This document shows, one piece after another, positions 2,173 through 16,944 of a stretch of DNA of 19,227 nt. The stretch is from Oehlia diaphana (Eukaryota > Glomeromycota > Glomeromycetes > Glomerales > Glomeraceae): assembly GCA_003833135.1 (NCBI GenBank), contig QZLH01000072.1, positions 50,465 to 69,691 on the forward strand, given 5' to 3'. The number at the start of each line of letters is the position of its first letter. Within the stretch, counting starts at the first letter, position 1. The notes under the pieces were generated by a model. The model was given only the letters and a program-made list of their open reading frames with translations, ran no database searches and was not told the origin of the DNA. The position numbers were made by a program, and so were the translations under genes.

Positions 2173-4300
2173 CTATTCGAATAAGGAAAAATTTAATTCT
2201 TTTCTGTCAAGGGAATTAGGTTCATAGGTGAATTCCTGAATTCCAACACCACTGATTATTCGAGTTTCTGTTGAAAAAACACAGCCGATAGCACATTTAG
2301 TCTTACTATAAAATTCCCGTTGTGCTGTAAGAGTAACAAAATATTTCTTTTCGAATATTTGATTTGTCGCTTCTTCTATTAATTCCTTAACATTTCCTCC
2401 TTCCCAACGCTTGTACTCCAATGAAATATAAACTTCCCAACGTCTCTATCCTCATGTCGGTTCGACCTTTACAACTAACATCCTCACTGCGAAATGGTAG
2501 GCCAATATAACGTACTAACATATGTACTAACATATGCATATGTGAGTGATAGTAACCTTCGTATTTTGATGCATGTTGGCTTTCGAAATAAGGGATAGAA
2601 GCCAAATCGTTATTAAATTCCTTCAGAAATGACAAGAGTTTATCGTTTTTAGGAGTTCCGCAAGTAATTCAATTCGTTTAAATGCATTTTCTACTGGAAT
2701 GCAAAAAGTATTGGCCCATAGTTCACCCATCAAAGAATTTCGCACTTCAATTTCAAGGATCAGATACTCCGTTTCTTTATTAACTATTTCTACTTGCTTG
2801 ATGGTTAAGTAACCTGTTTGAAAAAATAATGACACGGGTAGTTCTGAATTCTGTATATTCTCAATACTAACAGGAATGATACAATCTCTATTGATTCGGA
2901 TTTCATGTTTTGCAATGTCTTTGATATGTTCTAGTCTTTTTAGTCCAAAAATTCTCTAGCTTATTCCCATAAAAAAACTGCATATACTAAATGGATTGTA
3001 AACTCTGATGTTGCCGTCCCAAGAGTAGCCATTGTATTTTTCCTCAAGTTTATTCATCGTTTCTGATACATTTGAATACTCTCCTAAAAATTTACTTTCA
3101 AAAAGTTGTTTCTATCTCATTATTTGCAAAGCCATATGCCCCGGATAGCTTGTCACTTAATGTCAAATCAACAAGTTGATTTGCCCCTGAAAATAATTGC
3201 ATAGTTGAAAACATTGTGACGCCAGTGTTGCAATGATTTGATTATTTCGAAGAAGCCCTTCAATATCTCACGGTTTTCATCCGCAACTTTCAAACTCTCT
3301 TTCGTAGCATTAAAGACACTTAGTATTGGTGAATCATACTCATCCACGAGAATTACCACTTTTTCATATACATGTTCTTCATGATTGGCAAGTTTTGTAA
3401 TTAATTCTTCGATCATACTTTAAATTCAAACCATAACTATCTCCAATCGATCTTAGCTCTCGAATAAGTCCCTTTTCTAACGCCTTCGGTCCCTTAACTT
3501 AGAGAAATCAAGTCGGATGACAGGAATTGGAAGCAAATCTTGTTCATTCCATTTCTTTACTGTACCCTTAACATAAATTTCTGGCGGATGTTGATAGATG
3601 TATAAATCCTTAAAGAGATCATGCTGGATCAAAAAAAGGATTCAATCATATTAAGAAACATTGATTTTCCAAATTTTCGAGGTCTTGATACGAAGTATTG
3701 GCCAGAATTTAGATCAAGCTTAGCCAGCCAAGAAGTTTTGTCCACGTATAATAGATGATTCTCGCGCACTAATTTGAATTCCGATTGTGATACATGAACT
3801 CGCCGAACCTCATTACTCGAACCGTGAACGATAGATGTTTCCTTAGGATCTCTATGCTTAAGTTTCCTTTTCTTTTGTATGTGCTCTTTGTGGGAGTAGG
3901 CAAAAAAATGGAAAGAGAAAACAAGACGATTAATAAAAGATGTGAGATAACGCGAATTTCTTGTTCGAGAGGTAAACCATTGGGAGATACTTACCAGTGG
4001 CGGGCAACTCCACAATGATGTGGATGTGCTCACTAGGAGGTTGTTTTTTGAATTCTTGTCCAATAGTTTTGAGGTCGCTGACCAATTTCTCACCTCCGAA
4101 CTTTTCTTCGATATTGATTCCCTCATATATCTCATGTTTTTCATTTTCAGGAATATTAACATGCCATAATATCAGTTTGTGTGCGGTTCAGCCAATCCTG
4201 CCTGCTCCTTGATGGCTCCCTTGAGATGCCCAATGGTCTTATTTGTATCGAAATCAACAGGAAATGCGTTCTCTTCGCCTAAAACGATACAGCCTAACAT
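2173..4300 (-). pseudogene. Decayed Crinkler (CRN) gene: CRN domain, AAA-ATPase-like domain and PD-(D/E)XK nuclease domain
   Basis: The best start is the ATG at 4300 (protein begins MLGCIVLGE). Exon 1 runs to 3995 and encodes a CRN-type ubiquitin-like N-terminus, with IKEQAGL, then LILWHVNIP, ending EHIHIIVELP, as Crinkler N-domains do. A good intron (3886-3994, GTAAGT...CAAAG) joins phase 1 to the second exon. Exon 2 carries the AAA-ATPase-like domain: YVDKTSW, Walker A RPRKFGKS near 3662-3690 and Walker B VVILVDEYDSP near 3325-3365. A PD-(D/E)XK-like nuclease domain follows, with GRTDM near 2455-2470 and LEYKRWEGG near 2399-2424, ending at the stop 2173-2175. The frame is broken near 4172, 3632, 3487 (stop), 3420, 3195, 3113, 2955, 2635 and 2440. 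CRN proteins are known as host-nucleus-targeted effectors in oomycetes and also occur widely in early-diverging fungi. This copy cannot make a full protein as read. Frame-break positions are approximate and family calls are by motif recognition. Confidence 0.85.
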
Positions 4301-8608: not shown

Positions 8609-9310
8609 ATGTCTCAAATTCCACTGGAAAAAAATAATGCTTTCATCTTTAATGGGAAAGAATATAAGGTTCCATTCCCCACCATTAATTTTAATGATAA
8701 ACAACGAGGAATGAGTTTTCATACTCCTCTTCTCAAGGATCACTGGGACGAACGAACAGACCCAACTGGATCAAAAATTGATACTATAGTTTTACATTGG
8801 GATGTTGCTAAATCTTCTAAAGATTGTTTTGACGTATTAGTTAAACGAGGTCTATCAGTTCATTTGATGATTGATCGTGATGGAACAGTTTATCAATCTC
8901 TCGATTTTACTAAAAGAGCATGGCAAGCAAAAGGAGTTAATGATCATTCAATTGGAATTGAAATTAATAATCAATTTTATATTAATCAACAAGATCCAAA
9001 GTGGCCTCGTAAAGAAGTTTATTCAAGAGACCCAAGGTCAGGTGTACCTTATAAACATCTTGATTTTACAGAAAAACAAAAAACTAGAGTTGTTCAAGTT
9101 GTTGAAACTTTATGTAAAATTGTGCCAACAATTCCAAGAATATTACCTCCCAAAGGAAAAGATGTAAAAATTATTACTAGATTATTAAATGAAAATGAAG
9201 TAAAAGGTGTTGTAGGTCATTTCCATACTTCTGTAGAAAAAATTGATCCTGGAGATACTTTATGGCCTCTTTTATATGATTCTTTCTCTAAACCTTCTCC
9301 AAAGTTATAA
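8609..9310 (+). CDS. N-acetylmuramoyl-L-alanine amidase-type zinc hydrolase (Amidase_2/PGRP-like), 233 aa
   Basis: Members of this fold cut the bond between N-acetylmuramic acid and the first L-alanine of peptidoglycan stems, using zinc. The domain fills most of the protein. IDTIVLHWD supplies H63, the HLMIDRDGTVYQ strand starts at H85, SIGIEIN contains E118, and VVGHFHTSVEKIDPG supplies H204, K211 and D213. H63, H204 and D213 fit the usual His/His/(Cys or Asp) zinc triad, and K211 sits where the T7 lysozyme lysine lies, two residues before the third ligand. There is no signal peptide or membrane segment, so a cytosolic enzyme is predicted. The gene is one exon; ATG 8609 follows a stop-rich leader and has an A at -3. 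Fungi make no peptidoglycan and such genes are uncommon in them to my knowledge, so bacterial origin is plausible. Its AT-rich codon use matches its neighbours. It faces the MFS gene, with 226 bp between the stop codons. Confidence 0.85.
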   Translation: MSQIPLEKNNAFIFNGKEYKVPFPTINFNDKQRGMSFHTPLLKDHWDERTDPTGSKIDTIVLHWDVAKSSKDCFDVLVKRGLSVHLMIDRDGTVYQSLDFTKRAWQAKGVNDHSIGIEINNQFYINQQDPKWPRKEVYSRDPRSGVPYKHLDFTEKQKTRVVQVVETLCKIVPTIPRILPPKGKDVKIITRLLNENEVKGVVGHFHTSVEKIDPGDTLWPLLYDSFSKPSPKL

Positions 9311-9455
9311 TTTTTTAAAAAAAATGATTTTAAAAAGGTGTTGTAGGTCATTTCCATAATTCTGTAGAAAAAATTGATCCTGAAGATTCTTTATGGCCTC
9401 TTTTATATGATTCTTTCTCTAAACCTTCTCCAAAGTTATAATTTTTAAAAAAAAT
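9201..9455 (+). repeat. Tandem duplication of the amidase gene 3' end (period 131 bp)
   Basis: The last ~110 bp of the amidase gene plus about 20 bp of trailer are repeated immediately downstream. GGTGTTGTAGG starts at 9206 and again at 9337, and the TAA stops are at 9308 and 9439. Over 9206-9310 versus 9337-9441 I count three substitutions. Read in the gene's frame all three change the residue (T to N, G to E in the DPG motif, T to S). The second copy is not in frame with the gene and has no start of its own, so it is best read as a 3'-trailer relic. Confidence 0.9.
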
Positions 9456-14874: not shown

Positions 14875-16944
14875 ATGAAGTTTAATAATTTATTATTAAT
14901 CATAAACGTTTTGGTAACGTTCTCGTTCGTTGCTAATAATATTATTATTGATGCTGTCCCACTAATATTAAGAGATGCTTCCAATGCTACTGATGCTAAT
15001 GATGGTAAATGGGAATTCGTTGGAAAGTAAGTACAAGAATTTTTTTTTTTTAGAAACTTATCAAATTTATCTATATGCCTTATTTAGTAATCACTAATTA
15101 TTAAATTAAACAAAATAACAAAATAGAACCGGTGTATCTGCTATGCATTTGACCCTTATTCGACCAACAAAAGTTTTAATTATTGATAAAGGTAATTATG
15201 ATCTGCAATTATGGTTACACATAATATATTATTATTATATAATTTTATATTATATTAATATACATATTGTATTATACATATTGTATATTTTGTATATTAT
15301 TTATATTATTGTATTATTATTGTATTATTATTATATATCCTATTATATTTATTATATTATAAAATAATTATATTATTATTTATTTTATTTACTAAATTTT
15401 TAAATTTTTTCCTTCCTTCTTTTTTTATAGCCGGTATAAACCCAGAAGCTTTAATTGCAAATGGAAAGTATGCTTATTCGACATTATACGATTTGACCAC
15501 AAATACGTATCGTATATTGAGTTTACACACAAATACGTTTTGTTCGGCTGGTGCTTATTTGGCCAATGGAACAATGGTGGAAACTGGTGGTGCTGAAGAT
15601 ACTGCTGGTGAAAAAAATGGTTTTCAATCAGTTCGTTTGATTGATGGTTGTGATGATGGTAGTTGTGATTGGTTAGAATTTCCTTATGAATTGGATTCTG
15701 CTAGATGGTATAATACTATGGCTTCTTTACCTGATGGTCGTGTATTTAATCTTGGTGGTTCAATAAAAGCTTGTGCTATAAATAGAAAAGATATTGAAAA
15801 TCCAACTTATGAATTTTTCCCAAAAGAACATGAAAAAGGTCAAAAAATTCAATTTTTAGAGGATTCTTTCCCATTTAATCTTTATCCTACTGTTATAGTT
15901 TTACCTGGTCCAAAAGGTCAAACTTGGTTATTCTTAGCTGCTAATAAGAAAGCTCAAATTTGGGATTATACATCAAAAGAAGTTGTAAAACATTTACCTG
16001 ATATACCAGGTGGTCCTCGTACTTATCCTCTTACTGGTACAGGTGCTTTGATTCCTTTATCTTATAGAAATAATTATCAAGCTGAAATTATTGTTTGTGG
16101 TGGTGGTACTGATATGAAAAATCGTAATGCTCCTGCTGAAAATACTTGTGAAAGAATTAATCTTGCTGATAAAAATCCTCAATGGGATGAAGATGAATTT
16201 GGACCTAATATGGAAACTGGTCGTTTAATGCCTGATGTTATTCATTTACCTGATGGTAAATTATTATATGTTAATGGTGCTGGAACTGGTATGGCAGGAT
16301 GGGATAAAAAAGCTACAAATAAAACTCCAAGACTTCATACTGCTGGTAAACCAACAAGGAATCCTCTTTTATATAATCCTCATGTAAAGAAAGGTTCAAG
16401 ATGGAGTAAATTTGCTGAAGATCCAATTATAAGAGTTTATCATTCATCTGCTACTTTAGTTCCTGATGGTACAGTTTTCGTTGCTGGTAGTAATCCAAAT
16501 AGATATTATTGTGGTATGGATCAATGTGAACATCCAACTGAACATAGAGCTGAAAAATTCTATCCACCATACTTATTAAATGGAGTATCTCGACCAACAA
16601 TTACAAAAGTTGCTGGACAAACAAAACTTAATGATGTTGAAGCAATTCCTGTTAAATATGGACAAACAATTTCTGTAGAAGTTGAAATTGATTCACCAAA
16701 CCCTCAATTTACTTCATCATTATCACATATGGGTTTCGTAACACATTCACAACATATGTCCGCTAGAGTTGTTGAATTAAAAGTTGATAATGTAAAAAAA
16801 TCAGATTCAGGTTATACAATGGATATCACATTACCACCACATGCCAATATTTTCACACCAGGAAGACATAATTATTTGTTCGTTCTAAACAAGGGTACTC
16901 CTGGTAAAACCGCCATTGAATTACATTTAGAAACAGAAGATTAA
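14875..16944 (+). CDS. Secreted glyoxal oxidase-type copper radical oxidase (CAZy AA5 family), 576 aa, three exons
   Basis: Exons are 14875-15026, 15127-15191 and 15431-16944; introns are GTAAGT...TAG and GTAATT...TAG and the phases join cleanly. The protein starts MKFNNLLLIINVLVTFSF, a signal peptide, so it is predicted to be secreted. The mature part begins WEFVGKTGVSAMHL, as in glyoxal oxidases. All active-site residues of the galactose/glyoxal oxidase fold are visible: C110 in NTFCSAG (forms the thioether crosslink), Y166 in ARWYNT, Y409 and H410 in RVYHSS, and H511 in THSQHM. The Kelch-like propeller repeats (LPDGRVFNLGGS, LPDGKLLYVNGAG, VPDGTVFVAGSNP) precede a C-terminal domain with the last histidine. 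The reaction is oxidation of aldehydes or primary alcohols with O2, giving H2O2. Length is close to the 559 aa Phanerochaete enzyme. No WSC, PAN or carbohydrate-binding module is seen. The substrate is unknown; roles in cell-wall or extracellular peroxide chemistry are inference. Confidence 0.93.
15198..15405. repeat. AT-only low-complexity tract inside intron 2 of the copper oxidase gene
   Basis: Intron 2 (15192-15430, 239 nt) is mostly a scrambled TAT/TTA/ATAT repeat with a T-rich stretch before TTTTTTATAG. It is more than twice the length of intron 1 (100 nt), apparently through microsatellite growth. A 74-codon open frame runs into it from exon 2, but past the splice site it is only a product of low complexity. 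Confidence 0.75.

Follow-up and report, generated by a model that had tools for sequence, protein, structure and literature searches.

Fungi lack peptidoglycan. The window analysed here, a 19,227-nucleotide stretch of DNA from the mycorrhizal fungus Oehlia diaphana, nevertheless encodes a protein resembling peptidoglycan amidases. Mycorrhizal fungi coexist with bacteria, both on and inside their hyphae. To our knowledge, the mechanism by which fungi perceive bacteria is largely open. What might such a gene do in this setting, and how did it come to be there?

An amidase gene in a fungal locus

The gene is a forward-strand open reading frame of 233 residues, running from ATG to TAA without an intron (Table 1). 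The encoded protein matches Pfam family Amidase_2 (PF01510) across residues 54–215 (E 5.9e-19). The score of 69.1 bits exceeds the curated cut-off of 26 and so places the protein within the family. H63 and E118 align with AmpDh2, a zinc amidase, in a significant segment of a PDB sequence search (best E 3.3e-4). H204, K211 and D213 align with AmpDh2 in a further segment, which by itself falls short of significance. All five residues are shared by every row of a 16-row family alignment. Five AlphaFold models spanned pLDDT values of 59.4–86.0, and the best structural matches of the window protein model (best pLDDT 86.0) were AmpD and AmpDh2. Hence, the sequence-only reading, which had proposed an amidase-type enzyme with a full catalytic site, is borne out. 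It had also noted the absence of a signal peptide. Consistent with this, inspection by eye found no hydrophobic stretch at the N-terminus, and there is no obvious export signal. The 3' end of the gene is repeated in tandem. The repeated unit spans the final 109 bases of the gene together with its trailer; the second copy lies past the stop codon and would not form part of the protein.

Table 1. Positions in the window of the amidase gene, its key codons and the adjacent repeat
Feature	Position	Strand	Remark
Group A amidase CDS, 233 aa, stop included	8609..9310	+	single open frame; full-length match G000:C72:59073-59771
H63 codon, zinc ligand by homology	8795..8797	+	kept in groups A and B
E118 codon, catalytic Glu by homology	8960..8962	+	lost in 13/13 group B rows
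H204 codon, zinc ligand by homology	9218..9220	+	Asn in 5/12 group B rows
K211 codon, catalytic Lys by homology	9239..9241	+	lost in 12/12 testable group B rows
D213 codon, zinc ligand by homology	9245..9247	+	Gly in 12/12 testable group B rows
Tandem copy of gene 3' end, 97% identical	9333..9454	+	copy 1 = 9202-9323; repeats codons 197-233

The genes flanking the amidase match MFS_1 (an MFS transporter) and Glyoxal_oxid_N in Pfam. Both consist of coding pieces in differing frames, as would be expected of genes with introns. The amidase coding sequence has a GC content of 31.6%. At third codon positions (GC3) the value is 13.7%, compared with 9.4% for the adjacent oxidase gene and 57–83% in four bacterial or viral-contig relatives that we measured. 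The nearest protein, from Rhizophagus irregularis, is 94% identical and belongs to a cluster of 13 sequences whose longest contig is 1.24 Mb. Clusters of close relatives are named R. irregularis, R. clarus, Glomus cerebriforme and Diversispora epigaea, and their longest contigs range from 0.39 to 1.35 Mb. With relatives on long fungal-named contigs, host-like GC3 and split eukaryotic-type neighbours, we rejected contamination. The earlier description of a fungal-type locus, with intron-bearing neighbours and AT-rich codon use, therefore stands.

Two further regions of the window deserve mention. Two reverse-strand open reading frames (3168-4162) match separate parts of AAA-ATPase_like (PF09820); these are either exons or parts of a split or decayed gene. 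A glyoxal/galactose-oxidase-type open reading frame occupies positions 15574-16944 of the forward strand, preceded in that region by additional coding-like pieces.

A sister group lacking catalytic residues

Fungal members of the family fall into two groups: A, containing the window protein, and B. We searched 108.8 Mb of the O. diaphana genome, in 1672 contigs, for further copies; the resulting counts are lower bounds. There are at least three full copies, namely the window gene and those on contigs C1471 and C574, together with the 3' fragment just past the window gene. The two additional copies belong to group B.

Group A comprises ten rows, one of them a fragment. H63, E118, H204, K211 and D213 are kept in all nine rows covering them. 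Hence, group A, including the window protein, has the zinc ligands and the catalytic Glu and Lys of an Amidase_2 zinc enzyme. Group B does not, since E118, K211 and D213 are lost in every row that could be scored (Table 1). K211 is replaced by Thr, Arg (4/12), Ser or Ala. H63 is retained throughout and H204 in 7 of 12 rows. H206, which is not counted as catalytic, is Asn in all 12 group B rows and in one group A row. Among the other, non-fungal rows, 94 of 97 have all five residues.

We scanned the alignment for positions that are invariant in group A (8 rows), carry the same residue in at least 90% of the other rows (97) and have lost it in every group B row (12). The scan yielded only E118, K211 and D213. 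Conversely, 24 conserved positions, H63 included, stay invariant in group B. Hence, group B appears to have given up the chemistry while preserving the scaffold. Group B proteins P0099, P0101 and P0107 match PF01510 with 57.6, 54.1 and 45.6 bits, respectively (cut-off 26). The fold is likewise preserved in a structural model of a group B protein (pLDDT 89.2). Some capacity to bind metal, or some activity, may persist in group B, given the retention of H63, the frequent retention of H204 and the replacement of K211 by Arg in some rows. This conserved non-catalytic sister group is a feature beyond the claims of the sequence-only reading.

Group B is not a functionless relic. Between the two group B copies of O. 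diaphana, a codon-frequency model gave an omega of 0.22 and an omega of 1 was rejected (2dL 42.8), indicating purifying selection. Counting by NG86 gave dN/dS values of about 0.56 within group B and 0.64–0.65 between groups; we prefer the codon-frequency model because NG86 ignores the strong AT bias. The A–B omegas from the codon-frequency model (0.06–0.07) are not relied on, since the distances are near-saturated. A relic was likewise rejected for group A, as 220 of 233 residues are common to the window protein and R. irregularis P0001. The group B copy L003 is about as conserved relative to its R. irregularis counterpart, P0101 (223 of 229 residues identical).

Diversispora epigaea has at least four group B genes with neighbouring locus numbers (P0107, P0108, P0109 and P0134; Glove_126g13-g21). 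These probably form a local cluster, given the nearby locus numbers and equal contig size (146,418). The contigs of Glomus cerebriforme P0009 and P0105 are likewise of equal size (105,270). Protein P0102 is assigned in its record to a plant, Anthurium amnicola, but groups with Rhizophagus and G. cerebriforme group B proteins in a 51-row tree. We infer that P0102 represents fungal RNA inside a plant transcriptome and, hence, hints at expression.

Proposed roles of the two groups

We consider it likely, reading from sequence, that group A proteins are cytosolic zinc amidases, that group B proteins are non-cutting peptidoglycan binders and that the family stems from one ancient transfer. Group A enzymes would cleave the MurNAc-L-Ala bond, either in peptidoglycan or in muropeptides, once these reach the cytoplasm. 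Family membership alone suggests peptidoglycan as the substrate. It might come from walled bacteria entering the hypha or from fragments taken up. Group B proteins would bind these ligands but leave them uncut, serving as a sensor, a scaffold or a decoy. As a pair, the two groups may both process and sense peptidoglycan in an organism that has none of its own.

The sequence-only reading had suggested action on wall fragments of symbionts or invaders. According to passages of a review, Rhizophagus harbours Mollicutes-related endobacteria, and cell-wall synthesis genes are missing from the first genome of such an endobacterium, obtained from Dentiscutata heterogama (PMC13315312). This weakens the case for symbiont walls and makes walled bacteria that invade the hypha, or fragments taken in from outside, more probable targets.

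Alternatively, group A proteins could leave the cell by a leaderless route and lyse bacteria in soil or on the hyphal surface, for defence or nutrients. Group B would then supply a wall-binding competitor or coat protein. The window protein does match phage wall-lysis families (amidase phrog_1794, E 1.7e-14; endolysin phrog_1493, E 1.3e-10), and a peptidoglycan-binding domain accompanies the amidase in 9 of 98 matches. However, no wall-binding domain is present in the fungal proteins and the N-termini of the group A and B rows inspected by eye are not signal-like. We regard export as unlikely.

Less likely still, the family acts on an amide outside peptidoglycan, and the group B changes reflect a new substrate with catalysis intact. 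Such a shift would suit an organism without peptidoglycan and the low identity to solved amidases. These include the bacterial Amidase_2 enzymes AmpD, AmpDh2 and AmiD, to which the window protein is at most 33% identical. It also falls outside the NCBIfam AmpD equivalog (NF008758), scoring 33.9 bits against a cut-off of 143. Nevertheless, the catalytic set of group A is the same as that of nearly all non-fungal rows, and the joint loss of Glu, Lys and the zinc Asp fits lost chemistry better than retargeting.

Origin of the family and its parallels

Two trees were built. The first, built quickly from 117 rows, took its non-fungal members from the listed matches; those below 190 aa were dropped and P0008, P0132 and P0134 were excluded as short or partial. 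Long branches were flagged, as was an odd composition of several fungal rows. The second tree, a 51-row subset, had a composition flag on P0106 only. In this tree all 20 fungal rows form a single clade (bootstrap 100, SH-aLRT 97), nested among bacterial, viral-contig and other non-fungal rows. The set of rows placed closest to the fungi has low support (90/74). The fungal clade divides into A (99/97) and B (100/97), both of which contain a Diversispora-type and a Glomerales branch. According to NCBI taxonomy, G. cerebriforme belongs to Glomerales and D. epigaea to Diversisporales. The quick tree recovered the same clades, with SH-aLRT values of 97, 95 and 94–95. In an AU test, for which rows were picked after inspection of the first tree, a topology placing group A and 12 near non-fungal rows apart from group B was rejected (p-AU 0.00012). 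The A/B root is less certain than the single fungal clade because the B branch is long.

The family is most simply explained by one ancient transfer, in which an N-acetylmuramoyl-L-alanine amidase of bacterial or phage origin entered an ancestor of the sampled Glomerales and Diversisporales. In the simplest history, the transfer preceded the split of these orders and an early duplication followed. An origin outside fungi, as the sequence-only reading supposed, is thus supported by the nested position of the fungal rows. The phylogeny it called for goes against a recent event, which we rejected because groups A and B each span both orders within one fungal clade. Separate or recent transfers, or contamination, might explain a patchy fungal range, but are very improbable sources of these genes given the single clade, the Glomerales/Diversispora split in both groups and the AU test, as well as the long contigs, host-like GC3 and split neighbours described above. 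Among the matches listed (best 120 of 429 in one search), named fungal relatives come from Rhizophagus, Glomus cerebriforme and Diversispora. So narrow a range does not distinguish between losses in other Glomeromycotina, gaps in sampling and gene transfer from one fungus to another.

Named and contextual relatives suggest that the non-fungal rows nearest the fungi are bacterial or phage in nature. Direct relatives of the window protein include Hoch_1554 of Haliangium ochraceum (P0014; 45% identity over 94% of the window protein) and three viral-contig proteins, L088-L090 (37–44% identity). The four relatives measured differ from the window gene in GC3, as noted, and some relatives add an N-terminal PG_binding_1 domain. 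Among 84,980 species genomes scanned, 80 loci were kept. One was strong, in a Myxococcales MAG (L008; 39% identity, E 3e-42), and the remaining 79 were weak (E 3e-11 or worse). The phylum of this MAG contributed 282 genomes, 26 of them with a match at E 1e-20 or better; in the 25 other than the MAG itself, the match falls within an open frame of at least 658 aa and so probably belongs to another architecture. A scan of viral contigs returned eight loci. L089 and L090 bear phage-type replication genes, with a replication initiation gene in both and a primase/helicase in L090. For L088, no clear phage gene was found among the two neighbours examined. PG_binding_1 is present in L008 and L088 and absent from L089 and L090. 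The 238-aa amidase of L089, without a Pfam wall-binding domain, resembles the fungal form. Known phage and plasmid records gave partial matches only (7 of 50,697 and 1 of 72,556 records, respectively). Selected genes next to the relatives, scanned against Pfam and PHROG, revealed no clear system.

Titles and abstract openings of the open-licence papers listed (25 of 1,355 in one search) yielded no report of this family in fungi. The words 'amidase' and 'peptidoglycan' do not occur in the main texts of a survey that covered gene transfer in 44 early-diverging fungi (PMC11291939) and a R. irregularis transfer paper (PMC5982333). The present amidase is also unmentioned in matching passages of PMC10507103, PMC10234402, PMC8778642 and PMC13315312, and in the passages on peptidoglycan and horizontal gene transfer in PMC7732545. 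Peptidoglycan-type enzymes have a precedent in fungi: passages of one paper report fungal GH24 phage-type lysozymes and call their role there not obvious (PMC8778642). These differ from the amidase in Pfam family (PF00959) and in the bond concerned. The closest published analogue that we found is aphid amiD, a peptidoglycan amidase gene of bacterial origin in a eukaryote hosting bacteria, highly expressed in bacteriocytes (PMC9116674). The host belongs to another kingdom and the abstract makes no mention of a non-catalytic sister lineage (PMC9116674).

Animal PGRPs have the same fold as the fungal family, with 9–19% identity in structural alignments. They exist both as amidases and as non-catalytic receptors. 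Catalysis in PGRPs is typically lost at a zinc Cys, whereas group B lost E118, K211 and D213. No animal sequence was among the named matches listed (best 120 of 429 in one search), and animal PGRPs were not among the rows of either tree. The parallel would be direct in fold and, judging from general knowledge, in history.

A further proposal, which we put forward tentatively, is that arbuscular mycorrhizal fungi evolved a PGRP-like system from one captured bacterial or phage amidase. Group A would be a cytosolic enzyme that clears peptidoglycan fragments, and group B an old non-catalytic receptor lineage sensing them. If so, fungi would have an innate-immunity-like perception of bacteria, paralleling animal PGRPs, and the family would be an independent instance of the path from amidase to receptor known from those proteins. 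A conserved, bacteria-derived peptidoglycan enzyme and its non-catalytic sister group offer concrete candidate genes for bacterial recognition in mycorrhizal fungi.
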